Source: a virus
Length of the DNA: 25,320 nt
IMG/VR virus record: IMGVR_UViG_3300046517_001950
Coordinates: 1-25,320 of that record
Direction: 5' to 3' (one strand)
The stretch's first letter is position 1; every line of letters begins with the position of its first letter. Below the pieces are notes generated by a model. The model was not told the origin of the DNA. It did not search any database and saw nothing but the letters and a program-made list of their open reading frames with translations. Positions 4,319 to 23,841 of the stretch are shown here, one piece after another. Both the position numbers and the translations under genes were made by a program.

Positions 4319-4347
4319 AGGGTAGCTAGCGCCATGGCACTTGTCAA
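4319..4347 (-). promoter_or_regulatory. Operator-promoter copy 1 (leaderless type)
   Basis: Read on the minus strand: -35 TTGACA (4347-4342), operator AGTGCCATGGCGCT (one position off the consensus), AGC, -10 TACCCT (4324-4319), six bases, then the ATG of the 38-aa gene. The spacer is 17 bp and the palindrome fills it. The TGA stop of the RuvC-like gene (4346-4344) is part of the -35 box. Confidence 0.85.
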
Positions 4348-4802
4348 GCTCCGAGCGAGATCATGCCTCTCCGAGCACGACCGAGAGCGAAGAGACCGAG
4401 GCCGATCGCATCCCAAACGTCATGAGAAGCGCCATGGTGAATCCGAGCGAGCTCGCCAGCGCCAAGGATCATCCGAATGCGTTCTTGGCAGAGATGCTTA
4501 TCAATCTGACCCTTCCACTCGTCCGGGCGGATCCATTGGAGGCTTTTGCATCCGTGCAATTGGCCAGCAACGATACCGGCTCGAATGGCCAGCGTGATCA
4601 AATCGTTAACTGGGCCTTTCCGCATGCCTGGCCGGTCGCATGGTCGTTCGATCACAACGTCTTGAAGCAACGGCCTAATGGATCCTATCTCCCGTAAACT
4701 CTCCCCCCTGTCTGGATTAAAAAAGCCACAGTAAACTAGTTCTTTGCTCACATTCTCGAAATAGGCCCACCCTGTAGACAGGCCCGGATCTATGGCAATC
4801 AT
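4344..4802 (-). CDS. RuvC-like Holliday junction resolvase
   Basis: The 152-aa product begins MIAIDPGLSTGWAYF, the RNase H-fold first strand with catalytic Asp5. The second acidic residue is Glu52 in VVIERP, and the last acidic cluster is Asp128/Asp131 in HDVWDAIGLGL. This spacing matches RuvC-type resolvases of phages, which cut branched DNA before packaging or during recombination. The segment WIRPDEWKG (90-98) is also typical. The ATG at 4802 is chosen because it overlaps the upstream stop as ATGA and because the fold starts there; longer in-frame reading upstream has no homology-like features. The gene ends inside the -35 box of the next promoter. Confidence 0.88.
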   Translation of the reverse strand: MIAIDPGLSTGWAYFENVSKELVYCGFFNPDRGESLREIGSIRPLLQDVVIERPCDRPGMRKGPVNDLITLAIRAGIVAGQLHGCKSLQWIRPDEWKGQIDKHLCQERIRMILGAGELARIHHGASHDVWDAIGLGLFALGRARRGMISLGA

Positions 4803-5077
4803 GAGTAATCTCCGACCATGAGGCAAGCCAAAGAAAACGCCACCCACTGACCAGCGACAAGCAAAGCAATCGCTCCGTTTCGGATGATCACTCCGCTGGC
4901 TCGATCGCGAGCCACGCGTGGGCTTTGCGTTCTCCTCTGTCTTGGCCCGATGCGCCGAGGGATGGCTTTCCGGTAGCACGTTCGACATTTGGCTGGCCTG
5001 CCGGCTCGCCTCGCTACGGCCCACGTCGTCATAGCACTTTCGCTGATTTGCGCTCCACAACCTTCTGAACACTCCAC
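4799..5077 (-). CDS. Small protein with putative zinc ribbon and hydrophobic helix
   Basis: The 92-aa reading from GTG at 5077 has CSEGC at residues 3-7 and CRTC at 32-35, a plausible four-cysteine zinc ribbon. A basic linker follows, then a hydrophobic segment (about 68-88). The stop overlaps the start of the RuvC-like gene by ATGA, which shows the frame is used. Start choice is open: an ATG at 5032 overlaps the stop of the preceding gene by ATGA, the usual arrangement here, but would drop the first two cysteines. The paired cysteines favour the longer form. Function is unknown; its position in the recombination cluster may mean a DNA-linked role. Confidence 0.55.
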   Translation of the reverse strand: MECSEGCGAQISESAMTTWAVARRAGRPAKCRTCYRKAIPRRIGPRQRRTQSPRVARDRASGVIIRNGAIALLVAGQWVAFSLACLMVGDYS

Positions 5078-5307
5078 GCCTCTACCTCTCGCTTTCGTTT
5101 TTCTCTAGAATCTCTAAGCCAGGCCGCGTTTGGACTTGTGAATCGAGCTTGTCTTTTTCTTGCATTCTCTCGCCTCTTTTGTGGAGGGACTGAATGCGGA
5201 AAATATCTTGGCCAAGGCATTTGGATCTTCGGCATCTCCCCGAGGCTTTGAGCCTCTTCGAAGATGGCGAGAATGTCTTCCCTCAAATCAAGTTCGTTCC
5301 AACTCAC
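5029..5307 (-). CDS. Small basic protein downstream of DNA polymerase, unknown
   Basis: From the GTG at 5307, whose GTGA overlaps the polymerase stop, the product is 92 aa. An acidic helix (NELDLREDILAIFEEA) is followed by a very basic second half (QKRRENARKRQARF, REKRKREVEAW). Such a charge split suggests a nucleic-acid or protein-binding adaptor, but no family is recognised. The reading frame is open further upstream to a TTG at 5367. I prefer GTG 5307 because of the four-base overlap. The end overlaps the zinc-ribbon gene by 4 or 49 nt depending on that gene's start. Confidence 0.55.
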   Translation of the reverse strand: MSWNELDLREDILAIFEEAQSLGEMPKIQMPWPRYFPHSVPPQKRRENARKRQARFTSPNAAWLRDSREKRKREVEAWSVQKVVERKSAKVL

Positions 5308-7223
5308 TGTGACCACACTACCAGTCTCCCTGATGCGTCCCGTTTCGATTTTGCTGCTTTGCTCCAAACCGTTGAGACGGTCGGAGGGGCTTTGATTCGC
5401 ACATCAGGGAGCCAGGGTTTCGCCGCCGAGATCATCGTCTCGGAGAGGGCTTCCGCCGCTTCGGGGGCTCGATCGGCTGGAGCTTCTAAGACGTATTCAT
5501 CGTGGCCAAAGAGAACCATCCGACAGCCGAATAGCGGATTGTCCCATCCGCGGATGTGACAACGCTCCGTTACTTGCCAGCCAGCGGCTTTGGCGATGTC
5601 CGCCCCTGGCCCTTGAAACATTGTGTTACAAGCTTGCGTGAAGCGTAGGCCACCCCGGACTCTATTGCTCCGGAGTTGGGTTATCCGGCCCGCTCCGCCT
5701 TCTGTCAGGGCTCCGATGTATTCAAAAAAGAGCCGGGCTTCCGGAAGCGTCCGAAGCCAAGTGGCCTTGAGTGCGCGCGCCTCCGGCTCTGAGATCGGGA
5801 CGCGGTAGTTTCCCCATGCGAAGAGGACCAGCGCGGCCGCCCCGAGGCCTCCGGGGAAACCGAAATTCGCCACCTTGCCCGTCTGTCTGGCCCGATACAC
5901 TCGACCGGTTGGATCCGCTTCAAGCTCTGCCTTGGCTTGTTCGTAAGAGATCCCTACCAGCGTGCGAGCCACCTCCAAATGGGCGTCTTGGCCAGCGTTT
6001 AGGATTTCGGCCAAACGGCTTTGGCGAAATAGATCGATGCAGGTTTGCGCGAAGGTGCAGAGCTCCAAACCGGAGAAATCCGCCGAAATGAAGAGGAAGC
6101 CTGGCCTTGGTTGGAAGCACTCACGAATCCCGAACTTCGGACCTTTCTCAGGCCCGTATTGCTGAACCTTGAAATTCTGGACGTTCGGTTGAAAACTGGT
6201 AGCTCGGCCCGAGTCGGCCAAGCCGTAGCGACAGTGCATAATCCCGTGCCGAAGTAGCTTCACATCCTTATTGAGGACCGTGGCCAGGGAGGTGTATTTG
6301 CCAAAGGAAAAGAGCACCGGGTCTTGGGAGAGCTCGCAGTGCTCCTCGGCTAGAGAGGGTTGGCCCTCGGGGTGCGTCTCACTGGGATCGGTGCGTGGCC
6401 AGCCCGGAGGCGTTCGAGCCATGGCCAGCTTGACGGAGCGTTTCCACTCGGGGGCCTGAAACCAGAGCGGCCGGCCCTGGCCCTCAAAATCCCTAGCCAG
6501 TTTGGCATTGTCCGGAACGAGCAATCCCTCTGATTTGAGCCGATCCCGGTGCTCTGAAATCTCGGCTTGGATGAACGTCTCAAGAGCATCCACCTTTTGG
6601 GGATTGGCCAAGAGACCCCAACCGGCGCAAAGGGCCAGCCAAAACGAAGCCCTGCTTTGCCTGAATTGGTCCGGAAGGCCTTCGGGAGGTGCGTCTCTTT
6701 CTTGCGCTTGGAAAAGAGCCTCCGTCGACGAAACGTCGTCCAAAGCGTATTGGCGCGCCTCGTGGGGCCACTGCTCCACCGGAACGTCTCGGAGCTCTCC
6801 GTAGCGCAAGCGCCAGGTGTCTTCGCCTTTGGCCATGGTGAGGCCTAGGCGACGCTTGGCGCATCCGGCAAGGCTGTAGGGGCCTGGCTCACCCTTCCGG
6901 GGTTTCTTCGCTGAGATCCTCTGGTGATTCCCGTTGGCGATTTCGATGAGCTGATCCCGGGCTTGGGTGCACGTTACGCGGTCTTCGCGATACGCGGCGA
7001 AAACCGAAGGCGTGAGGTCCGGCCACTCGGCGCAAATCACGCCCATGTCGAAAGCCACATTGTGGCCAACAATGCAGGCTTGACCGAGGATCCATTCGAC
7101 GGCCGGCCGAGCATCGCACCATCGCCAAATCCGGCCGGCGGCTTGGACGCACACTAGCCGAGGGAATTGCGCCCCTGGCCCGATTAGGTGCGTTTCTGTG
7201 TCGAAGGTTGTGGGAGTAGCCAT
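5304..7223 (-). CDS. Family A DNA polymerase with 3'-5' exonuclease
   Basis: The 639-aa product starts MATPTTFDTETHL, giving the exonuclease I motif (Asp8, Glu10). Exo II is NVAFD (Asn55, Asp59) and exo III is YALDD (Tyr159, Asp163). The polymerase part has motif A ISADFSGLEL near residue 380, motif B with RQTGKVANFGFPGGLG near 443-457, and motif C GHDEYVLEAP near 571. Thus both proofreading and polymerase sites look intact. There is no 5'-3' exonuclease domain, as usual in phage replicative enzymes of this family. Start ATG 7223 is chosen because the exonuclease fold begins there; it overlaps the DUF7768-like gene by 40 nt. It should copy phage DNA with the primase and helicase encoded upstream. 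Confidence 0.93.
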   Translation of the reverse strand: MATPTTFDTETHLIGPGAQFPRLVCVQAAGRIWRWCDARPAVEWILGQACIVGHNVAFDMGVICAEWPDLTPSVFAAYREDRVTCTQARDQLIEIANGNHQRISAKKPRKGEPGPYSLAGCAKRRLGLTMAKGEDTWRLRYGELRDVPVEQWPHEARQYALDDVSSTEALFQAQERDAPPEGLPDQFRQSRASFWLALCAGWGLLANPQKVDALETFIQAEISEHRDRLKSEGLLVPDNAKLARDFEGQGRPLWFQAPEWKRSVKLAMARTPPGWPRTDPSETHPEGQPSLAEEHCELSQDPVLFSFGKYTSLATVLNKDVKLLRHGIMHCRYGLADSGRATSFQPNVQNFKVQQYGPEKGPKFGIRECFQPRPGFLFISADFSGLELCTFAQTCIDLFRQSRLAEILNAGQDAHLEVARTLVGISYEQAKAELEADPTGRVYRARQTGKVANFGFPGGLGAAALVLFAWGNYRVPISEPEARALKATWLRTLPEARLFFEYIGALTEGGAGRITQLRSNRVRGGLRFTQACNTMFQGPGADIAKAAGWQVTERCHIRGWDNPLFGCRMVLFGHDEYVLEAPADRAPEAAEALSETMISAAKPWLPDVRIKAPPTVSTVWSKAAKSKRDASGRLVVWSQ

Positions 7224-7570
7224 AATGTTGTCTTTGCAGTCCGGTACTCGTCCCAAGCCTTGCCCAGCGAGCGCCACTCGATCTCCCGGCCGAGGGCCTT
7301 AGCCTCGTCGATGCCCTGAACCATACCCTTGGACACTCCGAGATCGTAATAGACGATCGTCGCTCCGGCCGCTCGCCCCCAGAGCAAACCAGCATCGATC
7401 CCTAGCTTGCGCTGAACGGGATCGGAGTCGGCCAGGCACTGGGGGTAAAGCAGGTGTGATGCCCAGGGAGCTTCGTTTCGATCCAAGCAATCGCGCATCG
7501 CATGCTGAGCGTATCGAATGGCGATCCTAAGGCCGCCCATGAGAGGACTTTCGATGATGACCCGTCGCAT
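7184..7570 (-). CDS. DUF7768-like protein (nucleoside deoxyribosyltransferase-like fold)
   Basis: The 128-aa product matches a recurring phage/bacterial pattern: MRRVIIESP at the start, RYAQHAMRDCL, EAPWASHLLYPQ, DPVQRKLGIDAG, YYDLGVSKGM and AKALGREIEW. I know this pattern as the DUF7768 group, which is related in fold to nucleoside 2-deoxyribosyltransferase-like proteins; no activity is assured. ATG 7570 has an excellent GGAGGA ribosome site directly upstream, which decides the start against longer reading. It lies just 11 bases after the tRNA-like structure and overlaps the DNA polymerase start by 40 nt. A role in nucleotide metabolism or signalling is possible and is inference. Confidence 0.78.
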   Translation of the reverse strand: MRRVIIESPLMGGLRIAIRYAQHAMRDCLDRNEAPWASHLLYPQCLADSDPVQRKLGIDAGLLWGRAAGATIVYYDLGVSKGMVQGIDEAKALGREIEWRSLGKAWDEYRTAKTTLWLLPQPSTQKRT

Positions 7571-7580
7571 GATTCCTCCG

Positions 7581-7655
7581 GCCAAAGCCCCCGATTCGAA
7601 CGGGGCCGAGACTTGCTTACTGGGCAAGGGCTTCCAAGGCTTTACATCGCTCTGG
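7581..7655 (-). tRNA. tRNA-like structure 1 (75 nt, weak D-arm)
   Basis: Acceptor strands CCAGAGC and GCTTTGG pair over seven positions with one G-T wobble. An anticodon-like arm CTTGC/GCAAG has five pairs and the seven-base loop CCAGTAA. The T-arm is perfect: CCCCG, loop TTCGAAT, CGGGG. Length is normal for a tRNA. The oddities are that the D-stem can form only about two pairs, position 33 is C instead of U, and no CCA is encoded. The central loop triplet would be AGT (Thr). This may be a fast-evolving, decayed or non-decoding tRNA-like element. Confidence 0.5.
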
Positions 7656-7660
7656 CATAG

Positions 7661-7720
7661 CGGGATGACGCCGAATCGAACGGCGCTCACCCAAACCGAA
7701 ACCAGCCCGGTTTGCATCCC
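7661..7720 (-). tRNA. tRNA-like structure 2 (60 nt, lacks a full body)
   Basis: GGGATGC pairs with TCATCCC for six of seven positions, and next to it is a perfect T-arm, CGCCG, loop TTCGATT, CGGCG. Only 28 bases join acceptor and T-stem, against about 41 in normal tRNAs, and they fold as a single hairpin (CAAACCG/CGGTTTG with a nine-base loop). So a D-arm is missing. It precedes structure 1 by five bases in transcription order. It could be a deletion-decayed tRNA, a tRNA mimic or a processing signal. Confidence 0.38.
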
Positions 7721-7867
7721 TACTCCGTTAGGATTGCGGCCCAAGTGGAGCGACCTACCCATCTCTCGGATGCTGCTTTATTTCCCCCAGAGGGCTGCTA
7801 CGCATTCATGCCCGAGAGCAAATGTCTACAGGGTTGTAGCCTTTCCGGATTCAGCCCGGAGAGTTTT
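7721..7867 (-). ncRNA. Non-coding stretch with hairpins before the tRNA-like pair
   Basis: No convincing gene covers this part of the interval between the stop at 7868 and the start at 7570. On the minus strand it shows TCCGG/CCGGA with a seven-base loop (7860-7844), CTACA/TGTAG with a four-base loop (7839-7826), and a distant CTCTCGG/CCGAGAG pairing (7818-7812 with 7769-7763). It may hold further decayed tRNA-like units or one larger structured RNA. I cannot assign it to a known RNA class. Confidence 0.3.
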
Positions 7868-8623
7868 TTACCGCCGCCCGGCGTTCGGGTCCCAGCCCCC
7901 TCCAACCGGAGGTGCCCAAGGATTCGCCGGAGCTTGGCCCGTCGGGGGGTGGACCGGATAGGCGGGTTGATAGCCTCCCGGCGGACCGGCCGGAGGCGGC
8001 GCTTGCGGGGGGTACGCCTGCGGCGCTCCGTAGCCTTGCGTTCCTGGGGGCGGGGGTTGGCCATACCCCGGCGGAGCGACCGGAGCCGGCGCAGTGGGAT
8101 ACGGGACCGGATTCGGCGCGCTTGCCAAGCGTCGGAGGATCTCAGCGCCCTGGTCCGCGCCTTGGAGGCTCGGGGCCGGACTCCAGAAATACGTTGTGTA
8201 GAAAGGCACCTTCGCGCCAGGCTTCGACGGTTTCGCGTCCGTCCGGATGAACACCCTCAGACCCATCAAGATGTTTCGTTGGTCGATCGCTGCTTTGGAG
8301 ATCGGATTCATTTGCTGAACGAACGCCGGATCCGCTGCATCGTGTCGCTGGCCAGAAACACCGATCATCAGGGCTTTGATTTGGCCATGGGCAATCGGAA
8401 GATCCTTCATGTCTTGATACCACGTACGCATTTCCCCCGGGGGATGGTTCGGGAGATTCGAGCTTAGGAGCTTGAATTCGCAAATGAACGCGTCGCCCTT
8501 TCGCAATGTGTGCTTGTAGACGCATCGTTGAATCTCGGCCTCGCCTTGGAAATGCGGCTCCAAGAAAACTCCGCGCTCAGTAAAGACAGCATTTTCGATT
8601 CCGCCAAACGGGTCATTATTCAT
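7868..8623 (-). CDS. Unknown replication-cluster protein with Pro/Gly-rich tail
   Basis: The 251-aa product has a folded N-terminal part (about 1-170) with RKGDAFICEFKLLSSN, RTWYQDMKD and AHGQIKALMIGVSG. A long low-complexity tail follows from about residue 180, built of Pro, Gly, Gln, Tyr and Ala. It starts inside the helicase stop (eight-base overlap), so it is made together with the helicase. Such architecture recalls single-stranded DNA-binding proteins, whose tails are disordered. However, there is no acidic tip at the C-terminus and I do not recognise an OB fold, so this is only a suggestion. No catalytic motif is visible. Confidence 0.7.
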   Translation of the reverse strand: MNNDPFGGIENAVFTERGVFLEPHFQGEAEIQRCVYKHTLRKGDAFICEFKLLSSNLPNHPPGEMRTWYQDMKDLPIAHGQIKALMIGVSGQRHDAADPAFVQQMNPISKAAIDQRNILMGLRVFIRTDAKPSKPGAKVPFYTTYFWSPAPSLQGADQGAEILRRLASAPNPVPYPTAPAPVAPPGYGQPPPPGTQGYGAPQAYPPQAPPPAGPPGGYQPAYPVHPPTGQAPANPWAPPVGGGWDPNAGRR

Positions 8624-10328
8624 AATATTCCTCCAAATTCAGATTGAGAAAATCAGCGATCAAAAGCTTAGGATTCTGATTCAAACTATCGCGCATATAC
8701 CTCGAATCGTCAACGGCTTTTTTCATCGATCCATAGTGCTCTGGGCACGAAATCACGACCGTCGATTCCACTGTATCAGCCAGTTGGCCAGGCCGGTGTG
8801 TGCGGCCGAGGGATTGCTCCCATGATAGGCCGTTCGACACTGGCGAGACGTAGTAGTTTTTGCCCCACCGATCTTGGAGGTTTCGTCCGGCTTGGTTGCT
8901 GGCCAAGGACAGGATGATTGACCGTCCGCCTGGATCCGCTTCGATGCTTTTGCGTGTGCGCCAGTCGAGCCCTTCGGCGCCGTAGAACGGAAGGCTGGTT
9001 AGGCTAGCCAAGGCCTCTCCGAAAGCCACGTGCTCCACCCAAATGAGCATTGGATCGGATTCGCGGATGCGCTTGGCCACGTGGTGAACGAGGAACGGAT
9101 CGAGCCAAACCGGAGTGCTGCATGGTTCGAAGGTCGGTTTGATTGCGCGCCACGCTGTCAGAGCTGGGAGCGCCTCCGGATAGAGGCCTCGATCGATCGC
9201 GTTGGCCACGGTCTTTGGCGAATCCAAACCCCTCCGATTGTCCGAGAGGATCTCCCGGCAGTGGGCCATCCAAGTGGCCCTAGCCATGAGCCACTCGGCC
9301 GGGGCCGGCGGCTTCCAACGTCGGAAGAATCCGCTGGCCATCTCTCGGGTGTGCCTCCAGAGCGTCAGGGCATCCGCGAAAGCTTCGCCGTTCGGCGTGG
9401 TCCAGCTGTCGCGCATTTTGTTGAGAGCTTCCTCTAGGGGCCTAGGAAGCACTACGAAATCCGCCTCGATCGAAAGCGAGGCCCCGGTTTCCTCGGCGTC
9501 GCCCGAAGAGATGACGCCGGGTGTTTCGGTGAGGCGGCGCGCATAGGCCCGACGTAGACCATCGGGAGGCCTGGCCCGGTGCTCTTCGTCATTGCAGAGA
9601 TTCATGAGGACTCCAGGGTTGCGCCGCACCTCCGCCCCGTCGCGCTGGTCCAACACGTCCGCCCATTCTTCGAGCTCCGAATATTTGAGAGGTAACGGAG
9701 CTTTCTCCCGGAGCGCCCATTGGAGCAAATGCCAATAGTCTTTGACGGAGCGCTTCGTGATAGTGCCGGACATGCACACGAAGCGCGTACCGGGACTTTC
9801 ATGCATATAGCGAGAGACGCGTTTGGTTACGGCTGCTTTCCTGTTTTTCAGCTTGTGGCATTCGTCGGCCACGATGAGATCAGGCCGCCAGCTCTGGAGA
9901 AGCTTGTCGCTCTGAGGCCTCCCTAGGAGCTCATACGAGAGGAACCGAACATGGTTCGGGATCCGAAAATGCGACATGAGCTTGCGTTGGTCGCGGCGTG
10001 TCTTGTCTGCCAACGCGGCCGGAATGAGGAGCAGCGGCCGTTCCGATCGCACAATGAGGGGCGCGAGCAGTGAGATGATAGTTTTCCCGTGGCCTACCGC
10101 GAGCGGCGCGAATAAGCCGTAGTTGTGGTGCAATTCGAAAAGAGCGGCGGCCTGGATCGGCTTGAGGTGCATCTCGGCGCTCGGGAGCCGGACCAACCGA
10201 TCCATCGTATTTTTCACCCCCGCTAAGTCCTCGTCCGACCAAACGCGGCGTGGCAAGCCAGCTACTCTCCAAAATTCTGGAGTGGCCTGAATGCCACGCG
10301 TATCTGTTTGGCCGAAGAGCACTGTCAC
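8616..10328 (-). CDS. SNF2-like superfamily 2 DNA helicase
   Basis: The 570-aa protein shows the SF2 motifs in order: Walker A VGHGKT (78-83), Walker B DECH (155-158), motif III SGT (187-189), a late QAGRNLQD stretch near 485, and motif VI with QSLGRTHRPGQ (505-515), including arginine fingers. This pattern is that of SNF2-type helicases common in phage replication clusters, which move on or unwind double-stranded DNA. Start: GTG 10328 overlaps the nuclease stop by four bases (GTGA); a second GTG at 10322 has a GGAG at better distance, so the first two residues are uncertain. Its end is coupled to the unknown tail-rich protein. Confidence 0.9.
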   Translation of the reverse strand: MTVLFGQTDTRGIQATPEFWRVAGLPRRVWSDEDLAGVKNTMDRLVRLPSAEMHLKPIQAAALFELHHNYGLFAPLAVGHGKTIISLLAPLIVRSERPLLLIPAALADKTRRDQRKLMSHFRIPNHVRFLSYELLGRPQSDKLLQSWRPDLIVADECHKLKNRKAAVTKRVSRYMHESPGTRFVCMSGTITKRSVKDYWHLLQWALREKAPLPLKYSELEEWADVLDQRDGAEVRRNPGVLMNLCNDEEHRARPPDGLRRAYARRLTETPGVISSGDAEETGASLSIEADFVVLPRPLEEALNKMRDSWTTPNGEAFADALTLWRHTREMASGFFRRWKPPAPAEWLMARATWMAHCREILSDNRRGLDSPKTVANAIDRGLYPEALPALTAWRAIKPTFEPCSTPVWLDPFLVHHVAKRIRESDPMLIWVEHVAFGEALASLTSLPFYGAEGLDWRTRKSIEADPGGRSIILSLASNQAGRNLQDRWGKNYYVSPVSNGLSWEQSLGRTHRPGQLADTVESTVVISCPEHYGSMKKAVDDSRYMRDSLNQNPKLLIADFLNLNLEEYYE

Positions 10329-11515
10329 TCCGTTTCGAACAAGTCGCCCATGGCCATCGCGAAATCAGTGGCCGCTTTGATCAAGCGAGCTTTCGCGTCG
10401 GGATTGGGCTTTCGGCCACGCTTAGCCGGAGCAGCGACAGCTTGAACCGGTGCGACCGGTGCGACCGGTGCGGGAGGCGCGACCGGAGCGGCCGGCATCG
10501 GAGGCGGAGGCGCATACGCCGGTGCGGCTGGCGGCACTGGCGGAGGCGGCGCTTGTACCACCCACTGGCCAGGCGGAGAGAAAACATATCCGTTCTTCAC
10601 TGTCCCGTAGGGTGGCGCTCCTGGCGGAGGTGGAGGGGCCTGCGCGGCCGGGGGTTGCCACGGTGGGTTCACGCCTGGCCCCGGAGGCGCTTGGCCCGAC
10701 GTGTGGAGGCCGGCCGCTTGCGCCTCCATTTCGGCCAATAGTTCCGCGTGAGTCTTGGCCCCTTCGAGATAGTTACCTTGTGTCATGAGAGATCCTAGCC
10801 TTTCAGCGTCCGAGAGATTGCAGATTGAGGAGAAATCGCATTCTCGCCCGAAAGCGAAACATGCGGAAGCGGTTGGTTCAAGGTCCAGGGCTCTTGGCCT
10901 CCGGGTCTTCGGTAGTGTCATGATACTAGAGATTTCGCGTTTGGCCACGGTAATCTGAGCCAAAGCCGGCGCAATGTCATCACGGGTCACGTTTACAAAA
11001 ATCGGGAGGCGCTTGTAGGGCTTGACCGTCCGGTAATAGATCCAGCGCAAGCCGGCTTTAGGCTGGCCAGTGAGGGCCATCGCGGCGTCAGCATAGGAAG
11101 CGGCTTGGATGTCGCTCCGGATGGTGAGAATGTCTTTGGCGTGTCCGAAGCCCTTCGTCGTTTTGTGGTCCCAAACGATCGGCATGCCGAAGGGGTCGAT
11201 CGAACTGATGTCCAGGAAACCGTGCATCCCGTTGTGACGGAAATGCGTCTCGACCCTCCGACTCGGATCGGTCGGCCAGAGATCCGCGCCAGCCAAGGCG
11301 ATTTGGCCGGACTCTCGGGTGAGGTCTAGGGGTTTCCCGAATTCCAGGAACGCTTCGATCTGGGCATGCACCTCCAAGCCGAGGGCTTGGCTCTCCGTCG
11401 TTTGGCTCCGAAATCCTTCGAGCTTGGCGAAGCCCCAAAGACGTTTGCAGCGCGCCCAGCTCGAAACAGCCGAGGCGCTGATTTCCGTATCGGGGCAATC
11501 GCAATCTCGGCCCAT
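10325..11515 (-). CDS. Cas4/RecB-type PD-(D/E)XK nuclease with Fe-S cluster and proline-rich tail
   Basis: The 396-aa protein has Cys23 in a WARCKRLW segment, a His50 in GLEVHAQIEAFL, and the nuclease core Asp102 (HGFLD) and Asp116-x-Lys118 (VWDHKTT). A cysteine set Cys219, Cys226 and Cys232 (ACFAFGRECDFSSIC) follows. Together these are the four-cysteine iron-sulfur nuclease layout of Cas4/AddB-like enzymes, which process DNA ends. After about residue 275 comes a disordered Pro/Ala-rich tail and a basic KRGRKPNPDAKARL segment that may bind DNA. ATG 11515 is preferred: it lies just after the upstream stop and has a GAGG site, whereas the longer reading from 11581 would overlap that gene by 62 nt. 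It overlaps the helicase by GTGA. Confidence 0.88.
   Translation of the reverse strand: MGRDCDCPDTEISASAVSSWARCKRLWGFAKLEGFRSQTTESQALGLEVHAQIEAFLEFGKPLDLTRESGQIALAGADLWPTDPSRRVETHFRHNGMHGFLDISSIDPFGMPIVWDHKTTKGFGHAKDILTIRSDIQAASYADAAMALTGQPKAGLRWIYYRTVKPYKRLPIFVNVTRDDIAPALAQITVAKREISSIMTLPKTRRPRALDLEPTASACFAFGRECDFSSICNLSDAERLGSLMTQGNYLEGAKTHAELLAEMEAQAAGLHTSGQAPPGPGVNPPWQPPAAQAPPPPPGAPPYGTVKNGYVFSPPGQWVVQAPPPPVPPAAPAYAPPPPMPAAPVAPPAPVAPVAPVQAVAAPAKRGRKPNPDAKARLIKAATDFAMAMGDLFETE
10446..10472. repeat. Three tandem copies of a 9-bp unit in the nuclease tail
   Basis: The unit accggtgcg is repeated three times without change. On the coding (minus) strand it gives an Ala-Pro-Val repeat in the proline-rich tail of the Cas4-like nuclease. 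Tail length could vary by slippage. Confidence 0.8.
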
Positions 11516-11519
11516 CGCG

Positions 11520-11852
11520 CTATGCCTCGCATGTCCCGGGTTCTCCCGGCGTGTCGCCCCACCGATCTTCCGGCCACACAATCATACCCCCGCAGACCAC
11601 AACAGCATCGCCACCCCGGCACTCGGCGAATCCAACGCATCGATCTTTCGTGCCTTCCTGCAACTCGAGCCAGCTGCCGTCTACGCCAACAACGAGCGTT
11701 CGATAGCCCGCAGGCCCCTCGCTGCTCGCGCCGCGATCCATTGTCGCGATTGTGACGAGCAGGCGCATTGCAATTGACGCTAGCATCTTCGAATCTCCAC
11801 GCTCTGCGTATGAGCGAATCGCCGAAGCGATCTTGGTTGTCTCAACGGTCAT
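11520..11852 (-). CDS. Small unknown protein between ParB-like and nuclease genes
   Basis: The 110-aa product has an N-terminal helix (TKIASAIRSYAERGDSKMLA) and a second part with beta-like strands (YRTLVVGVDGSWLELQEG, GDAVVVCGGMIVW). I recognise no family. It overlaps the end of the ParB-like gene by 11 nt and ends five bases before the start of the nuclease, so it is part of that operon. Codon use looks like its neighbours. No signal peptide or membrane segment is clear, although the segment LASIAMRLLVTIATM is mildly hydrophobic. Confidence 0.6.
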   Translation of the reverse strand: MTVETTKIASAIRSYAERGDSKMLASIAMRLLVTIATMDRGASSEGPAGYRTLVVGVDGSWLELQEGTKDRCVGFAECRGGDAVVVCGGMIVWPEDRWGDTPGEPGTCEA

Positions 11853-12699
11853 ATGCCGGAGCTTTCTCCGACTCCCAAGCCCTCCGGACCTTCGTGGCGA
11901 TCTTCACGAGGGTTTCGGAGCCCTGTACCTCTTTCAGACCCTTGGCCGTCCGATCTTCTCCGAGCAGGAAGGCCAAGATAGCGATAGCGAAATCACACAC
12001 CTCGTCCGCTTCGTCCCCTTCGGCCGGAGTAAGATCCTCGTACAACTGGCGAATGGCTTTCACTGGAAGCTGGACGCGTTCCTTCGGCGCGCGCCGCACT
12101 CCACTGGCCACTCGGCCCTTTCGCACTCGCTTGACTACCTCTGTCGCTACGGCTTTCCCCTCGTCGATGGCTTGGAGCTCCTCCGCCGGGGCCTTGAGAA
12201 GGGTGAACCACGTGGCCAGGGTGGCGCTTGTGATGCCCATGATTTTCGCGATGGTCGCGTCGCTCTTGCCACGCAATCGAAGCACTTGGGCCTTGCGCGC
12301 TCGTTCGAGGGTGGAGCGCTCTTTGTAGTGTTCATTCGCCACGCTCATGGCCACGACTACGTCTCGGCTTTTGTTGAAGACGACCGGTACCGTAAGAAGC
12401 GCGTGTTTCGACTCGCCCGCCTTCCGGAGTCGTTTGTTGGCCTCCAAAACGGCGGCGTGTCGACGTCGGCCATCGATGATGATGATGATGCTGTTTTGGT
12501 TTGGCCCTCGCCTCTCCACGCAAATCGGCTTGTCGTGCAGATAGCCGATCTCAGGATCCATCATCGCCTGAACCAAGCCCTCATCCGGAGGCGCATTCAC
12601 CTCCGGATCGAAAAGCGGGTCCTTCGGATCGGTGATGCGCAGGAGATCCTCTGGCGCGTAATAGAAGACGTTTCCCTTGCTCTGTTCTTTCGCGTTCAT
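11842..12699 (-). CDS. ParB-like DNA-binding protein
   Basis: The 285-aa protein has a ParB-type N-terminal domain, with GRRRHAA at residues 77-83 (the CTP/NTP-binding arginine box of this superfamily). It continues with a SVANEHYKERSTLERARKAQ helix (119-138) and a helix-turn-helix SDATIAKIMGITSATLATWF (146-165), followed by an acidic C-terminal domain. ParB proteins bind palindromic sites for partition or, as in KorB, repress many promoters. No ParA is present in the window, so regulation is as likely as partition. Its own promoter holds the repeated palindrome. Unlike the other such genes it has a 12-nt leader with an AAAGGGG ribosome site. Confidence 0.85.
   Translation of the reverse strand: MNAKEQSKGNVFYYAPEDLLRITDPKDPLFDPEVNAPPDEGLVQAMMDPEIGYLHDKPICVERRGPNQNSIIIIIDGRRRHAAVLEANKRLRKAGESKHALLTVPVVFNKSRDVVVAMSVANEHYKERSTLERARKAQVLRLRGKSDATIAKIMGITSATLATWFTLLKAPAEELQAIDEGKAVATEVVKRVRKGRVASGVRRAPKERVQLPVKAIRQLYEDLTPAEGDEADEVCDFAIAILAFLLGEDRTAKGLKEVQGSETLVKIATKVRRAWESEKAPAYDR
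12475..12489. repeat. Five GAT triplets in the ParB-like gene
   Basis: Five perfect GAT units on the plus strand encode five isoleucines on the minus strand (residues 71-75), directly before the DGRRRH box. Loss or gain of a unit would keep frame but alter the strand leading into the nucleotide-binding site. Confidence 0.8.
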
Positions 12700-12717
12700 T
12701 TTGCCCCTTTGGCTTCA

Positions 12718-12746
12718 ACAGTAGTGAGTGCCATGGCACTTGTCAA
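12718..12746 (-). promoter_or_regulatory. Operator-promoter copy 2 (ParB-like gene)
   Basis: Minus strand: -35 TTGACA (12746-12741), perfect palindrome AGTGCCATGGCACT (12740-12727), CAC, -10 TACTGT (12723-12718). Expected start is near 12711, giving a leader of about 12 nt with AAAGGGG before the ATG at 12699. It is the one well-formed copy not predicted to be leaderless. The TGA of the primase (12745-12743) lies in the -35 box. Confidence 0.85.
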
Positions 12747-15144: not shown

Positions 15145-15319
15145 TTTCCGTTAGCACTGTAATCGGTAACGCGAGGCGTTAACTACATAATTGCTTCTGT
15201 ATCCTACCTTGCCATACAGAATTGCTGGACAGAAGGGCCAGATAAGCCTTATTTAAATGAAATTCCCTGATTACCGGCATACTTTGAGTGCCATGACACT
15301 AATAGCGTTATAGGGGGTA
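15050..15319. other. Divergent control region with several inverted repeats, possible origin
   Basis: This 270-bp AT-richer interval separates the minus-strand replication operon from the plus-strand packaging genes. It holds AATGCC/GGCATT (15085-15100), CGGAAAA/TTTTCCG (15124-15150) interleaved with AGTGCT/AGCACT (15130-15158), TAACGC/GCGTTA (15167-15181) and an eight-base TTCTGTAT/ATACAGAA (15195-15221). The operator palindrome lies at 15287-15300. Its place beside a primase-helicase suits an origin or a divergent promoter hub. No clear minus-strand promoter could be chosen. Confidence 0.5.
15284..15313 (+). promoter_or_regulatory. Operator-promoter copy 3, divergent in layout
   Basis: The operator AGTGCCATGACACT (15287-15300) is present, but the promoter boxes are shifted. 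A weak -35 TTGAGT (15284-15289) overlaps the operator, and TTATAG (15308-15313) follows an 18-bp spacer. Six bases then lead to an ATG at 15320, as at the leaderless copies. The shift means regulation may differ; the site could also act on the minus-strand operon. Confidence 0.5.
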
Positions 15320-15461
15320 ATGCCGGATTTTAATATATTAAATGCTGATACGTCCGATGCGTCCTGGCACGAAGCCTGCAAGCAAATCCCCATCTGTCCA
15401 GGCCAGGATCCGCCTCCGCCGGAGGTGCGTCATAAAACCCTCTTGGCCAAACCGCCCTGGC

Positions 15462-15932
15462 ATGCACTACAATGCACGTGTGGCGAAATGGCCCTGGGAT
15501 CAGCACGATGCCGAGTCCGACGAGGATTATCGGGCGTTCTGCCTTTGGCGCGATGGGAACCGCGTGGCCGGCCCGCCTTTCCGGGCTCTGCTCTGGCCGG
15601 AGCGAGCCAAGGCCTACGACTCGTGGCGAGGACCCCTTGGCCCTCAAATAGAATTGGCCGAGGAAGTCCGACAGACGGCGCTACGTATCACCCTGGCCCA
15701 TCTTCGCGAAAGCGAGCGTACGGGCATCCTAGAGATACCGTTGGCCCAAGCGGCGAAACTGGCCCTAGCGGCCGGCGCTCAGAAGGACCGACGAGAGTAC
15801 GCACTCTCGGAGAGCGAGCTCCGGAGGATCTACGCGCCTCAGACTCTCGAGACTCCGCCGGGCCTGGCCACGATGAACGACGAGGAGCTCTGGCAACTCC
15901 GAACGCTCCAAGATAAAGCCCAGGGGCGTTGA
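15462..15932 (+). CDS. Small-terminase-like phage protein
   Basis: The 156-aa product has AKWPWDQHDAESDEDYRAF near its start and FRALLWPERAKAYDSWRG soon after, a pattern of phage proteins usually found ahead of terminase large subunit genes. It then has long helices (LAEEVRQTALRITLAHLRE, LAQAAKLALAAGAQKDRREY). It probably recognises phage DNA for packaging. The start is unclear: ATG 15462 has no ribosome site, and the promoter upstream points to an ATG at 15320 that is in another frame. A one-base indel or frameshift between 15320 and about 15480 would join them. The stop TGA (15930-15932) lies within the -35 box of the following promoter. Confidence 0.65.
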   Translation: MHYNARVAKWPWDQHDAESDEDYRAFCLWRDGNRVAGPPFRALLWPERAKAYDSWRGPLGPQIELAEEVRQTALRITLAHLRESERTGILEIPLAQAAKLALAAGAQKDRREYALSESELRRIYAPQTLETPPGLATMNDEELWQLRTLQDKAQGR

Positions 15933-15957
15933 CAAGTGCCATGGCACTCGCTAGGCT
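15929..15957 (+). promoter_or_regulatory. Operator-promoter copy 4 (leaderless type)
   Basis: -35 TTGACA (15929-15934), perfect palindrome AGTGCCATGGCACT (15935-15948), CGC, -10 TAGGCT (15952-15957), then CTGGCG and the ATG of the 72-aa regulator at 15964. This is the best match to the consensus. Confidence 0.9.
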
Positions 15958-15963
15958 CTGGCG

Positions 15964-16182
15964 ATGGCCATTGAACCGGAAGAAGACAGGATTATGCCAG
16001 GCGATCTCATAACCCTCACCATAGTTTGCCGAGATTACGGAGGGCGTGACGGTATGCCGCTCAGCTCACTGCGATCGGCCATTAAAGCCGGCCGTTTGCG
16101 CTCATACAAACCGCTTCGTCGCGTGCTCGTTTCGCGTCGAGATGTCGAGCAGTGGATACGCGCATCTCTAAGAGTAGTCTAA
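15964..16182 (+). CDS. Excisionase/MerR-like small winged-HTH protein
   Basis: The 72-aa product ends with LSSLRSAIKAGRLRSYKPL followed by VSRRDVEQWI, the pattern of helix-turn-helix 17 (AlpA/excisionase-like) DNA-binding domains, about residues 33-67. The ATG lies exactly six bases after a -10 box, so the message is predicted to be leaderless. Being under the operator promoter, it may be a regulator that answers to, or belongs to, the same circuit; it is a candidate binder of the palindrome. It could instead be a true excisionase, though no integrase is seen in the window. No ribosome site is visible, in line with leaderless translation. Confidence 0.75.
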   Translation: MAIEPEEDRIMPGDLITLTIVCRDYGGRDGMPLSSLRSAIKAGRLRSYKPLRRVLVSRRDVEQWIRASLRVV

Positions 16183-16206
16183 CTGTGTTCGAGCTCAGCG
16201 GGGGCG

Positions 16207-16235
16207 TTGACAAGTGTCATGTCACTCGTTAGACT
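16207..16235 (+). promoter_or_regulatory. Operator-promoter copy 5 (leaderless type)
   Basis: -35 TTGACA (16207-16212), operator AGTGTCATGTCACT (one mismatched pair), CGT, -10 TAGACT (16230-16235), CTGGCG, then ATG 16242. Flanks GGGGCG before and CTGGCG after are the same as at copy 4, so the two probably arose by recent duplication of the whole promoter block. Confidence 0.87.
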
Positions 16236-16241
16236 CTGGCG

Positions 16242-16565
16242 ATGGTCTCACGATTCGATCTAGGGCAAGTGATCGGGGCACTCGGAGGGGACGAGATCGC
16301 TCTCCAAGGTCCGTACGCTACGCGCATCACGTTTCGGTTTGCTTGCGGCGGAGCGAGGCACTTTCACACGAATGATCCGAATCCGATCGAGGTCGCCCGC
16401 GTGGCCATGGATCTGTTGCTAGAGCAAGGCCTCGCACTCCGGCGAGTCGAGATCGATTCGAAGGAACACGAACCGTTTTACCAAACGATTGAGGTCCCAT
16501 GTTTGACGCAAGATTCCGCGAGATCCTTGACGACAACCGACGCGCCCAAAAAGCGCGCAAAGTGA
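16242..16565 (+). CDS. 107-aa unknown protein, leaderless
   Basis: The start is fixed by promoter copy 5, six bases after the -10 box. The product has a beta-rich first half (VIGALGGDEIALQGPYATRITFRF), a helical segment (NPIEVARVAMDLLLEQGLALRRVEI) and a basic end (APKKRAK). No family is recognised. The next small gene overlaps its 3' end by 67 nt. It may belong to a group of small early or accessory proteins controlled by the operator. Confidence 0.7.
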   Translation: MVSRFDLGQVIGALGGDEIALQGPYATRITFRFACGGARHFHTNDPNPIEVARVAMDLLLEQGLALRRVEIDSKEHEPFYQTIEVPCLTQDSARSLTTTDAPKKRAK

Positions 16566-16726
16566 AAGCCGAGGCGGACCTGAAATGCGGGATCCACACC
16601 CCTGGAAGGATCATAGAGCCGTTTGGCTGGCTCCGCGTCGGGCCCCGCACCACGGCGCCCTTCAGGCTCTCCCGAATGCCGACCTGCTCTTATGCAGCTC
16701 TCTTACTTGGCAGACACCAAGCATAG
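16499..16726 (+). CDS. Possible 75-aa protein overlapping the previous gene
   Basis: An ATG at 16499 follows a GAGG site at good distance. The product starts with a charged helix (MFDARFREILDDNRRAQKAR) and then has a CGIHTPGRIIEPFGWLRVGP stretch. It overlaps the previous gene by 67 nt in a different frame, and ends 24 nt inside the convergent minus-strand gene. Another frame is also open here, so this is only moderately supported. Confidence 0.4.
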   Translation: MFDARFREILDDNRRAQKARKVKAEADLKCGIHTPGRIIEPFGWLRVGPRTTAPFRLSRMPTCSYAALLLGRHQA

Positions 16727-16900
16727 GACCCCCCCCTTGCCCCGGCGGATCGTCCGGCCGTCAGGAAGCTTGCCGTCGGGGTACTGGGCTAGCGCCTCAG
16801 CGAGAGCGGTTTGCCTGGCTTGGCGGAAGGCTTCGATCGTCACCTCGGCTCTGGCCAACATCGCACACGTTTCGTCTAGCTTTTGGATTGCAGGAGTCAT
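16703..16900 (-). CDS. 65-aa unknown protein on the minus strand
   Basis: From ATG 16900 the product is one long charged helix (LDETCAMLARAEVTIEAFRQ, QTALAEALAQYPDG) followed by a compact end with LPDGRTIRRGKGGVL. Minus-strand reading is favoured because the helix-plus-hairpin pattern looks protein-like and the opposite-strand alternatives look like noise. It is divergent from the glycosyltransferase-like gene with 40 bp between starts. A weak -10-like TACCTT lies six bases before the ATG. A reading from 16948 is possible, but has no better ribosome site. Function is unknown. Confidence 0.55.
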   Translation of the reverse strand: MTPAIQKLDETCAMLARAEVTIEAFRQARQTALAEALAQYPDGKLPDGRTIRRGKGGVLCLVSAK

Positions 16901-16940
16901 ATAAATAAGGTAATCTCGATTATCTGAAAGGCAAAGGGGA

Positions 16941-18005
16941 ATGATCACACTTGCAATGCTCGTCGGGCCGGGCCGGGGCCCTCAACTCCGTATTGCTCTG
17001 GGCTCTGCTTTCGCGTTCGTGGATCGGCATAGCTTTGTCGTTTGGGACGCCGAACAGAAAGAGCCTTACATCCGAGATTGTCTCGAAAAGTCAGGCCCGA
17101 CGCGAGGATATTACGGCTCGCGCTTCGACGAAGCCCGCAACATGGCCATTCGAGCTCCGGCCCTGGATGGCCAGGTCGGCGTCACGATCATGCTCGATAC
17201 GGACGAGATCCTCTTAGGGGATCCGGAACGGTGGGGGCATTTTAATTGGGAGTGGGATCAGCCTGGCTATTACCTGGTGGATTGCGGGGGCTATGGACAA
17301 GCCCGCGTCTTCGTCGGGCCGATCCAAGGGCACTGGCATGGTCGGACGCATGAGGCGTTCGTGGGCGGGAAATGCCTCGGCGATATCCCCTCTAAGATCC
17401 TTCGCATCGAAGAGCAAGCGCCCAAGACCCTCGCCGATTTCCAGGCGAAAGCAGAGCGCGATCTTCCGCTCCTAGAGGATCAGATTCGAGAGGAGCCTCT
17501 CGACGGCCGATGGCATTTCTATCTCGGAGAGACCTACACCTTGCTTGGCAAGAACGGCTTCGCCGTTCGAGCGTACGCCCGTTGCGCCGAGCTCCGCGAG
17601 ACCTCTCCGGTCTTGGCCGACCGAGAGCAAGGCGCTTGGGCTTGCTTCAAAGCGGCGCGCGCGATCATGTCCGAAGGATTCATCGAGGATGACTATCAAG
17701 AGGCCATCATGTGCTTGGCCCTTGGCATGATGATTTATCCAGGCATGCCGGAGCTCCCTTGGTTCGCGGCGTACCTGGCCCATCGGTGCGAGCGACCGAC
17801 GCGAGAGATCCAGGCCTTCGCCCGGATGGCTATCGCTATCGGAGCCGTCGAGGGTCGCATGAACACCGAGGAACGGATCGGCTTTCGGGAAACCGTGGCA
17901 TGGTTCGAAGGGCCTTATCAATTGATGGCCCTCTCTGGCGCGGATGGCTTCGCTGAAAGGGCCGAGGTAGCGGCGCGGATGCGTGCTAGATTCGAGGCGA
18001 AATGA
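16941..18005 (+). CDS. Glycosyltransferase-like protein with helical repeat tail
   Basis: The 354-aa product has RFDEARNMAI (61-70) and MLDTDEILLGDP (84-95). This SxARN...DxD arrangement is that of GT-A family 2-like glycosyltransferases, with Asp86/Asp88 to bind the metal and nucleotide sugar. After about residue 160 it has helical pairs such as WHFYLGETYTLLGKNGFAVRAYARC and QGAWACFKAARAI, resembling TPR repeats. An AGGGG site precedes the ATG. Its position just before terminase is unusual; it may glycosylate phage DNA, capsid or a host surface sugar. It overlaps the next gene by ATGA. Enzymatic class is well supported; target is unknown. Confidence 0.8.
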   Translation: MITLAMLVGPGRGPQLRIALGSAFAFVDRHSFVVWDAEQKEPYIRDCLEKSGPTRGYYGSRFDEARNMAIRAPALDGQVGVTIMLDTDEILLGDPERWGHFNWEWDQPGYYLVDCGGYGQARVFVGPIQGHWHGRTHEAFVGGKCLGDIPSKILRIEEQAPKTLADFQAKAERDLPLLEDQIREEPLDGRWHFYLGETYTLLGKNGFAVRAYARCAELRETSPVLADREQGAWACFKAARAIMSEGFIEDDYQEAIMCLALGMMIYPGMPELPWFAAYLAHRCERPTREIQAFARMAIAIGAVEGRMNTEERIGFRETVAWFEGPYQLMALSGADGFAERAEVAARMRARFEAK

Positions 18006-18211: not shown

Positions 18212-19619
18212 GCGGGAGCTCGGCCGAAGGTCGCTGTACAACTTCACTCGGCTTGCTTGGCCGAAGGTGGACGGGAATGCGTTCGTCGACGGTTGGGTCA
18301 TCCAAGCCGTTTGTGAAAAGCTGGAGGACGTCTCCAACGGCAGGGTCAAGCGGCTGGTTATCAATCTTCCGCCGGGCTTCTCCAAGACCACGCTAACGGG
18401 AGTCATGTGGCCAGCGTGGGACTGGATCACAAAGCCTTGGCGGAGGTGGAGCTATGTCTCTTACGACCATAGCTTGATGAATCGCTACTCAAGCAAGCTC
18501 ATCGATCTAGTGACGAGCCCTTGGTTCATCGAACGATGGGGAAAGCTCATACCGGTTTCGAATCCGGCGCAAACCGAATTCCGCACTAATAAGGACGGCG
18601 GGAGGTTCAATACCAGTTTCAAAGGCCGGGCGACTGGCCGACATTGTCACATCCAAGTCTTTGATGATCCACACAAGCCCCTCCACGCGATGGGCGGAGT
18701 GAGCCTCAGCTATGAAGAGACTTGGGACCTGATGGCCAACACCTTCGCGAGCCGCGCCGTCAATCCCGAGACGTTCTCTCGCGTGATCGTCATGCAACGC
18801 CTCCACCCCGAGGACGCTTCTGGCAAGGCACTCGCAGCAGGATGGTCGAGTCTTCGGTTCCCCATGCGCTTCGAGGCGGACAATAGAGATCCGTGCGACC
18901 GACGTACGGAGGACGGAGAGGTCCTGAATCCCAAGCGGATGTCGCCCGCCGCATGCGACTCTCTTGAAAAGGAGCTCGAACAAGTCGACGCGACCATTTG
19001 GCCCACCCAATACCAGCAACGGCCGACGAGCAAGGCTGGCCAGATCATCCAAGCCGAGTGGATCCTGGCCAACACCGTCGGCCCGGATGACGTGCGAAGC
19101 ATCATCGCGCAACGCGAGCAGAGCTGGGATCTCAGCTTCAAAGACGCTCAAACGTCGGATTTTATCGCTGGCCAATACTGGGGCGCTCGGAATGGGCATT
19201 TCTTTATGTTCGACGAGCCGGTGTTCGAGCTCGCATCGTTCCTCCAAACGCTCGCACGCATCCGAGCGAAGCGTGAGGAATGGCCCTGCTTCGCGTGTCT
19301 CGTGGAGGATAAAGCGAACGGACCAGCGATCATCAACGTCCTGAAATCCGAAGGCGCCTCGAACGTGGAGCCCATCACACCCGAGGGCTCCAAGAGCGAG
19401 CGCTTGCATGCCGTTTCGCCGCTGTTCAAGAAAGGGCGCGTTCACTTTTTGCGTGGCCCGTGGCTAGACCGGATGGTCAAGACCTTCTCGAAGTTCCCAG
19501 CCGTCCGCCGTGACGACGAAGTAGACGCATGCACACAAGCCCTACTCCACTTGAACGGTGGTAGCGCGATGATCCAGCAATTGACGGACATCGCTCGGCG
19601 TCTAGGCAGAGGAGCTTGA
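18174..19619 (+). CDS. terL: Terminase large subunit
   Basis: The 481-aa protein has an ATPase domain with Walker A PPGFSKT (66-72, a variant of PPRHGKS) and Walker B IQVFDDP (Asp164/Asp165). It also has a nuclease domain with Asp319 in SWDLSFKDA, LVEDKANG (Glu378, Asp379), and RRDDEVDACTQAL (Asp447, Asp448, Asp451). It drives DNA packaging into proheads and makes the cuts. ATG 18174 is preferred to the earlier in-frame TTG at 18144; no strong ribosome site is seen, and translation is probably coupled to the preceding 69-aa gene it overlaps. Its TGA stop is inside the -35 of the following promoter. Confidence 0.95.
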   Translation: MHTSPIPSLAETERELGRRSLYNFTRLAWPKVDGNAFVDGWVIQAVCEKLEDVSNGRVKRLVINLPPGFSKTTLTGVMWPAWDWITKPWRRWSYVSYDHSLMNRYSSKLIDLVTSPWFIERWGKLIPVSNPAQTEFRTNKDGGRFNTSFKGRATGRHCHIQVFDDPHKPLHAMGGVSLSYEETWDLMANTFASRAVNPETFSRVIVMQRLHPEDASGKALAAGWSSLRFPMRFEADNRDPCDRRTEDGEVLNPKRMSPAACDSLEKELEQVDATIWPTQYQQRPTSKAGQIIQAEWILANTVGPDDVRSIIAQREQSWDLSFKDAQTSDFIAGQYWGARNGHFFMFDEPVFELASFLQTLARIRAKREEWPCFACLVEDKANGPAIINVLKSEGASNVEPITPEGSKSERLHAVSPLFKKGRVHFLRGPWLDRMVKTFSKFPAVRRDDEVDACTQALLHLNGGSAMIQQLTDIARRLGRGA

Positions 19620-19644
19620 CAAGCGCCATGGCACTCGCTAGATT
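19616..19644 (+). promoter_or_regulatory. Operator-promoter copy 6 (leaderless type)
   Basis: -35 TTGACA (19616-19621), operator AGCGCCATGGCACT (one position off), CGC, -10 TAGATT (19639-19644), CGTGGG, ATG 19651. The terminase TGA stop (19617-19619) lies within the -35. It heads a chain of four mini-genes before the portal. Confidence 0.87.
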
Positions 19645-19650
19645 CGTGGG

Positions 19651-19875
19651 ATGACACCCAGAGAGATCGCACTCGTGGCGCACCTTGAGACCCTCATGGG
19701 GGACAGGGGAAATATCAAAATCTATCCGACGTGGATCCGTGTCGATATCAACCGAGGCATGAAGTTTTCATCATATACTTGGTCGCGTGGGCCGGAGATT
19801 GAGGAGTGTCCGGTCTCACCAGAGGGTCAAGTTGACCTTGTGATCGATAGAATCGAGAAGGGATTTAGGCTGTGA
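19651..19875 (+). CDS. 74-aa unknown protein, leaderless
   Basis: Start fixed by promoter copy 6. The product has a helix (IALVAHLETLMGD), strands (NIKIYPTWIRVDI, KFSSYTWSRG) and a final acidic helix. I recognise no family. Its TGA overlaps the next GTG as GTGA. It heads a small operator-controlled operon located between packaging and portal genes. Confidence 0.7.
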   Translation: MTPREIALVAHLETLMGDRGNIKIYPTWIRVDINRGMKFSSYTWSRGPEIEECPVSPEGQVDLVIDRIEKGFRL

Positions 19876-20565: not shown

Positions 20566-20579
20566 GCTTCCGCGCGCCC

Positions 20580-23540: not shown

Positions 23541-23602
23541 CACTTGATCCTCCCGAATGGATCGCTCTCGATCGAAGTCTGAGACGGATAGGGCGGCGTG
23601 GC

Positions 23603-23806
23603 TCATGAGATCTCGCTCCTGACTCCTTCGCCATCAGTGATGAGCAGCATGCCGCGCTTGCGAAGCTCTGCCTTGATATCTGCGATCTCAACGTCCGAGC
23701 GTCCACCACGAGATCCGATATCGGAGTCGTCCCCGTCATCCCAGAAGTGGAGATAATCGCCAGCGTCGCAAGTGCGGGCCCATTCGATATCATTCGTCTT
23801 TCCCAT
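23603..23806 (-). CDS. 67-aa acidic protein, leaderless
   Basis: The ATG lies six bases after the -10 of promoter copy 7. The product is acidic (HFWDDGDDSDIG) with a helix SDVEIADIKAELRKRGMLLI near the end, a pattern sometimes seen in small DNA mimics or regulators; no family is known to me. Its TGA overlaps an ATG at 23606 by four bases, in frame with the lipoprotein. It heads the minus-strand three-gene operon. Confidence 0.7.
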   Translation of the reverse strand: MGKTNDIEWARTCDAGDYLHFWDDGDDSDIGSRGGRSDVEIADIKAELRKRGMLLITDGEGVRSEIS

Positions 23807-23812
23807 GAGACC

Positions 23813-23841
23813 AATCTACGGAGTGTCATGGCACTCGTCAA
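23813..23841 (-). promoter_or_regulatory. Operator-promoter copy 7 (leaderless type)
   Basis: Minus strand: -35 TTGACG (23841-23836), operator AGTGCCATGACACT (23835-23822), CCG, -10 TAGATT (23818-23813), GGTCTC, ATG 23806. It drives the lipoprotein operon against the direction of the head genes. Confidence 0.85.

Follow-up and report, generated by a model that had tools for sequence, protein, structure and literature searches.

A 14-bp palindrome in predicted promoter spacers points to a dispersed operator family in an uncultured tailed phage

The IMG/VR virus record IMGVR_UViG_3300046517_001950 is 25,320 bases long and belongs to a tailed phage; its whole length is called the window here. 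A 14-bp palindrome, AGTGCCATGGCACT, occurs seven times in the window, on both strands and spread across 19.5 kb. Six of these copies lie between the -35 and -10 hexamers of a predicted promoter. The palindromes are likely to be operators of one symmetric (dimeric) DNA-binding regulator that is private to this phage lineage, placed so that its binding would exclude RNA polymerase. The regulator would be phage-borne and fast-diverging, and is probably a repressor. Acting through these sites, one protein that binds DNA could probably switch a large share of the genome simultaneously.

All seven positions given in a preliminary description of the window are correct. The copies differ from the consensus by 0, 0, 1, 1, 1, 1, and 2 mismatches. 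At thresholds of up to one, two, and three mismatches the window contains 6, 7, and 8 matches, while dinucleotide shuffles contain means of 0.0, 0.06 (maximum 1), and 0.82 (maximum 3). The two-mismatch value comes from 100 shuffles. The eighth match, with three mismatches, falls at 10914 within the Cas4-like gene and is at chance level. The family is also found without prior choice of sequence: among all 6+6 dyads with gaps of 0 to 10, searched without bias, it ranks first in the window, with six members against three to four in shuffles.

Ten palindrome positions are invariant over the seven sites (A1, G2, G4, C6, A7, T8, G9, C11, C13, and T14). Variation occurs only at positions 3/12 and 5/10, which form two symmetric pairs (P = 0.021). 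This restriction to symmetric pairs suggests a symmetric dimer, and not copying alone.

The surroundings of six copies are equally regular. TTGACA or TTGACG stands immediately before the palindrome, three bases follow it, and a TANNNT hexamer comes next, so that the spacing is always 17 bp. This geometry, on both strands, is as first described. The composite promoter never appeared in 200 trials of Markov-shuffled sequence, and a search of the window for TTGAC-N16-18-TANNNT returned these six promoters only. Every unit with this class of promoter in the window therefore carries the operator. The six promoters and the seventh palindrome are as follows.

4319-4347, - strand: promoter/operator after ruvC; -35 TTGACA 4347-4342, palindrome 4341-4328 (AGTGCCATGGCGCT), -10 TACCCT 4324-4319, 6 nucleotides (nt), ATG 4312; predicted leaderless
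12718-12746, - strand: promoter/operator heading ParB and the replication block; TTGACA (the TGA in it ends the primase gene), palindrome without mismatch 12740-12727, -10 TACTGT, ATG 12699
15929-15957, + strand: promoter/operator; TTGACA (its TGA is the stop of a gene for a protein of 196 amino acids, aa), perfect palindrome 15935-15948, TAGGCT, 6 nt, ATG 15964; predicted leaderless
16207-16235, + strand: promoter/operator; TTGACA, palindrome 16213-16226 (AGTGTCATGTCACT), TAGACT, 6 nt, ATG 16242; predicted leaderless
19616-19644, + strand: promoter/operator; TTGACA (the TGA in it ends terL), palindrome 19622-19635 (AGCGCCATGGCACT), TAGATT, 6 nt, ATG 19651; predicted leaderless
23813-23841, - strand: promoter/operator; TTGACG, palindrome 23835-23822 (AGTGCCATGACACT), TAGATT, 6 nt, ATG 23806; predicted leaderless
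15287-15300: seventh palindrome (AGTGCCATGACACT), in the intergenic region 15049-15320 between the primase gene (- strand) and the 196-aa gene (+ strand); no TTGACA-17-TANNNT around it

Two further features of these promoters had been overlooked in the preliminary description. The first is the position of the start codon. Five of the six promoters have an ATG exactly 6 nt past the -10 hexamer, and each of these ATGs begins a reading frame 38 to 107 codons long. Transcription usually starts about seven bases past the -10 hexamer. By this standard geometry, the mRNAs should have their 5' ends at the start codon or immediately beside it, without a Shine-Dalgarno (SD) leader, and the five modules should be leaderless, with the start codon at about +1. 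The string TANNNT-N6-ATG occurs eight times in the window; five occurrences are at operator sites, which leaves three, the same number as the mean in shuffles (3.0). Only the ParB promoter has a leader, of 18 nt, with the SD-like sequence AAAGGGG. SD-like sequences are frequent before other genes of the window, for instance those at 7868-8623 and 16941-18005. Separately, a 65-aa open reading frame (ORF) at 16703-16900 (- strand) has TACCTT six bases before its ATG and TTGCCT 16 bases further up, which may be a leaderless promoter without an operator.

The second feature is that the stop codon of the upstream gene can lie inside the promoter. In four of the six modules, those following the 196-aa gene, terL, ruvC, and the primase gene, this stop is the TGA within TTGACA (after ruvC, positions 4346-4344). 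The stop-promoter-operator-start modules span about 36 bp. Three of the four are also leaderless by the geometry above, and so are complete intergenic units with 31 bases from stop to start.

The sites stand at the heads of several kinds of units. On the left side of the window are genes for a DNA polymerase, a helicase, a Cas4-like exonuclease, a RuvC-like protein, and a primase; on the right side are the terminase, portal, head morphogenesis protein, and head protease. The label RuvC is our own reading of the protein and its counterparts in relatives, as it matches no Pfam or PHROG family. The site at 12727 heads the ParB-like gene, followed in tandem by a 110-aa ORF and genes for the Cas4-like exonuclease, helicase, polymerase, and RuvC; direction and overlaps suggest that the block is one operon. 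The site at 4328 heads the post-ruvC unit, which consists of a 38-aa hydrophobic ORF, a 74-aa helix-turn-helix (HTH) protein, and a large protein weakly resembling pectate lyases. Small ORFs next to the packaging and head genes are headed by the remaining four promoter sites, at 15935, 16213, 19622, and 23822. The genes concerned are listed here.

3979-4203, - strand: 74-aa HTH protein; above the cut-off for Pfam HTH_23 and HTH_8/Fis; its gene comes second after the 4328 operator; candidate regulator
4196-4312, - strand: 38-aa hydrophobic ORF; predicted leaderless start; overlaps at its end with the beginning of the Fis/HTH_23-like gene
4344-11852, - strand: leftward replication block behind the ParB promoter; 110-aa ORF, Cas4-like exonuclease, helicase, 251-aa protein, DUF7768 protein, DNA polymerase, RuvC-like protein
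11842-12699, - strand: ParB-like protein of 285 aa (phrog_1033) with a predicted fold that matches ParB/Noc/KorB; candidate binder
15964-16182, + strand: 72-aa ORF; HTH_17 (excisionase-like); predicted leaderless start; candidate regulator
16242-16565, + strand: 107-aa ORF; predicted leaderless start
19651-19875, + strand: 74-aa ORF; predicted leaderless start; small ORFs that overlap one another and the portal gene come after it
23603-23806, - strand: 67-aa ORF; predicted leaderless start; followed by 119-aa and 126-aa ORFs

The preliminary description proposed that one repressor controls a set of accessory genes. A single dispersed operator family in a position typical of repression agrees with the first part of this proposal. 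The word accessory does not cover all the units concerned: the ParB promoter stands before the block of Cas4-like exonuclease, helicase, DNA polymerase, and RuvC, and another site heads the post-ruvC unit.

In the proposed mechanism, a dimeric regulator would bind the palindrome and cover the spacer between -35 and -10, and the bound regulator would exclude RNA polymerase. Most transcription units of the phage would then be silenced or timed together, namely the replication block, the post-ruvC unit, and the units of small genes next to terL and the head genes. We infer binding as a dimer, repression rather than activation, and a binder encoded by the phage. The system may serve in lysogenic silencing or in the timing of early and late genes.

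Searches with the primase, ParB, terminase, portal, and small ORFs found only distant relatives or none. The helicase led to a set of syntenic phages, referred to as G016 to G020. The whole records of all five lack both the palindrome family and the ParB of the window; the loose consensus is matched no more than once in each, at an isolated place and with one mismatch. G016 has a dyad of its own, GATAGCNNGCTATCAC (also given as GATAGCGTGCTATC); three copies are exact and two are degenerate, where shuffles give a mean of 0.1.

28141, - strand: G016 dyad, 0 mismatches
29525, + strand: G016 dyad, 2 mismatches
32958, + strand: G016 dyad, 2 mismatches
37361, + strand: G016 dyad, 0 mismatches
41062, + strand: G016 dyad, 0 mismatches

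These dyads precede the primase, the Cas4 operon, the polymerase operon, a gene in the orientation of the terL arm, and a 75-aa gene just after ruvC. Four of the five show the geometry TTGNNN-N18-TATCAC; TATCAC is a weaker -10 than TANNNT, so the G016 promoters are less certain. The 75-aa gene has its ATG six bases past a -10-like hexamer, the predicted leaderless arrangement, and its protein has only a weak LacI-type HTH match. No alignment was obtained between the post-ruvC HTH-type proteins of the window and G016. The sites, their spacing and symmetry, the leaderless geometry, the nesting of stop codons, the unit-head positions, and the different dyad at equivalent places in G016 were all obtained by computation. 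Each of the two phages has a private sequence, but places and geometry recur, a pattern consistent with phage regulatory systems whose specificity diversifies. Lack of conservation in related phages had been named beforehand as evidence against the operators. The palindrome sequence is indeed not conserved; the design does recur, in that one relative, G016, carries a dispersed dyad of its own where equivalent units begin. An unbiased dyad search of G017, G018, and G020 found no comparable family. G017 has two near-identical, non-palindromic promoter modules, CTCTAAGGNNTGGGTTACC, at 32647 and 31489 (both - strand), each followed by a common CCAACCACGGAG before the start codon.

Searches beyond the syntenic phages gave little. 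The composite TTGACNAGNGNCATGNCNCTNNNTANNNT had no other match in IMG/VR, and no repeated spacer palindrome was present among 126 other loci. A relaxed scan found single sites in unrelated phages, including a homologous group with TTGACATGTGACATGTCACGTGCTATAAT. Phages of this type have one exact site per record and hence are not a dispersed system. In L022, L024, L025, L027, L029, L032, and L026, which are unrelated phages, the common promoter TTGACATGTGACATGTCACGTGCTATAAT (TATACT in L026) holds a palindrome in the same register, once per record, and is leadered.

Which protein binds the sites is a separate question. The candidates are the ParB-like protein, the 74-aa HTH_23/Fis-like protein, the 72-aa HTH_17 protein, or the product of a part of the genome outside the record. 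The predicted fold of the 72-aa protein was too poor and was not used.

Among these candidates, the ParB-like protein (11842-12699) could be an orphan of the ParB/KorB/Noc type that binds scattered 14-bp parS-like palindromes, represses its own and other promoters, and perhaps also partitions a plasmid-like prophage. ParB-family sites are contiguous palindromes of 14-16 bp. A perfect site lies in the ParB gene's own promoter, the predicted fold matches Noc, ParB, and KorB, and the syntenic relatives without the sites are also without this ParB. Several results stand against this role. No ParA was found in the record or the relatives (there is no PF13614 in the incomplete 25-kb record), and an analogous dyad system exists in G016, where there is no ParB. 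A search for palindrome families in phages with ParB homologues found nothing comparable, and those homologues are not accompanied by repeated spacer palindromes. On balance, ParB is a rather unlikely binder.

The position of the sites also separates them from those of KorB, with which they had initially been compared. As in plasmid RK2, where KorB and KorA act, there are scattered sites for one regulator and a ParB-family protein encoded by the element itself. KorB binds OB sites that lie upstream of the -35, 4-10 bp or farther from the promoter, and acts as a sliding clamp, while KorA sites overlap the -10 (PMC11790492). The comparison fails on this point, which also counts against ParB as the binder, because the operator described here is inside the promoter, in the spacer between -35 and -10.

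A second alternative is that the dyad is a positive element, bound by a phage regulator that activates transcription in the manner of MerR. MerR-type activators use spacer dyads, and the dyad is present in all promoters of this class. MerR-type promoters have long spacers of 19-20 bp, however, and those described here have the optimal 17 bp. Together with the consensus -35, this spacing suggests that an activator is not needed, and activation is quite unlikely.

Phages can also use host operators, so the regulator that binds the sites could belong to the host, with the phage as a new member of its regulon. The strict leaderless composite pattern matched only once in 84,980 species genomes, and this match was rejected as part of a dispersed repeat in a deltaproteobacterial metagenome-assembled genome. 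IMG/VR records with a similar single site show no second exact one. A host factor is unlikely because the composite, in this strict form, is essentially absent from these genomes. The repeat in the deltaproteobacterial genome (L033, L037-L046) is about 57 bp long, ends in GTGACATGACAC, occurs in about ten copies, and is possibly the end of a transposable element.

Finally, recent duplication of a promoter cassette, with the palindrome as a passenger, is suggested by the 91% identity of 15923-15967 and 16201-16245 over 45 bp, but is highly improbable as a general explanation, since the remaining copies have only functional elements in common and differ in their flanks, variation is confined to symmetric pairs, and the orphan site at 15287 retains the palindrome without a promoter.

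Some observations weigh against operators of a private phage repressor. Two of the palindrome copies, 15935 and 16213, are the recent duplicate just mentioned, which reduces the number of independent promoters to about five. The copy at 15287 lies outside any such promoter. The palindrome family was found in no other record, so conservation of its sequence cannot be used as support. Lysogeny, the usual setting, is also no more than a possibility: no immunity repressor or integrase was seen in the incomplete 25-kb record, and no tyrosine integrase in G016 to G020. Neither PF00589 nor PF00239 was found in the 25-kb record or in G016 to G018; G019 carries a resolvase-family gene.

Dispersed operators are already known from several phages. 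In the Streptomyces phage phiC31, which is temperate and has a known repressor, conserved inverted repeats (CIRs) are scattered at promoters and are thought to let one repressor silence many units. The palindromes of the window resemble the CIRs in that one inverted repeat occurs at several distant places, six of the seven at promoters as judged by sequence, but their sequence is different. To our knowledge, a strict spacer position and leaderless starts have not been described for phiC31. Phage N15 has dispersed centromere sites bound by the ParB-family protein SopB, reportedly described by Grigoriev and Lobocka in 2001. Like N15, the phage of the window has its own ParB-family protein and scattered palindromes; unlike in N15, no ParA was found in the record, and the sites are in promoter spacers.

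Mycobacteriophages provide two more examples. Cluster A (L5-type) phages have many copies of one repressor site throughout the genome, acting as operators and stoperators (PMC9283540, PMC6550527). Those sites are 13 bp long, asymmetric, oriented along the direction of transcription, bound by a monomer, and also placed between genes to stop elongation, whereas the sites of the window are palindromic and located in promoter spacers. In cluster K, scattered genes have short repeated elements, called SAS and ESAS, next to their start codons, and some of the elements include inverted repeats (PMC3203893). The SAS is an asymmetric GGGATAGGAGCCC-like motif at start codons, which differs from the palindromic sequence described here, and the ESAS are 17-bp repeats with variable spacers and no reported fixed promoter register, in contrast to the fixed register of the window. 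As far as found in the open-access literature, a palindrome fixed in the -35/-10 spacer has not been combined with leaderless starts and stop-codon nesting.

A few other features of the window were noted. By eye, the intergenic region 15049-15320, between the divergent primase and 196-aa genes, is richer in A+T than the rest; it holds the orphan palindrome and may be an origin or control region. Inside the replication block, the 251-aa protein matches an ORF of G017, and a DUF7768 domain protein is encoded at 7184-7762 (- strand; E-value 9e-26). A tRNA scan of the window was empty.

More broadly, and only tentatively, a phage family may be run by leaderless stop-promoter-operator-start modules of about 36 bp at the heads of its units. 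Each lineage would have a private operator and a matching, fast-evolving regulator, possibly an orphan ParB-type switch of transcription across the genome.

For an uncultured phage, sequence alone thus predicts which units are co-regulated and where their RNAs start. The private operators of two syntenic relatives form a natural pair for studying how the specificity of phage regulators diverges. They also lend themselves to the question of an orphan ParB as a possible promoter switch, and the modules are compact enough for direct use in reporters.

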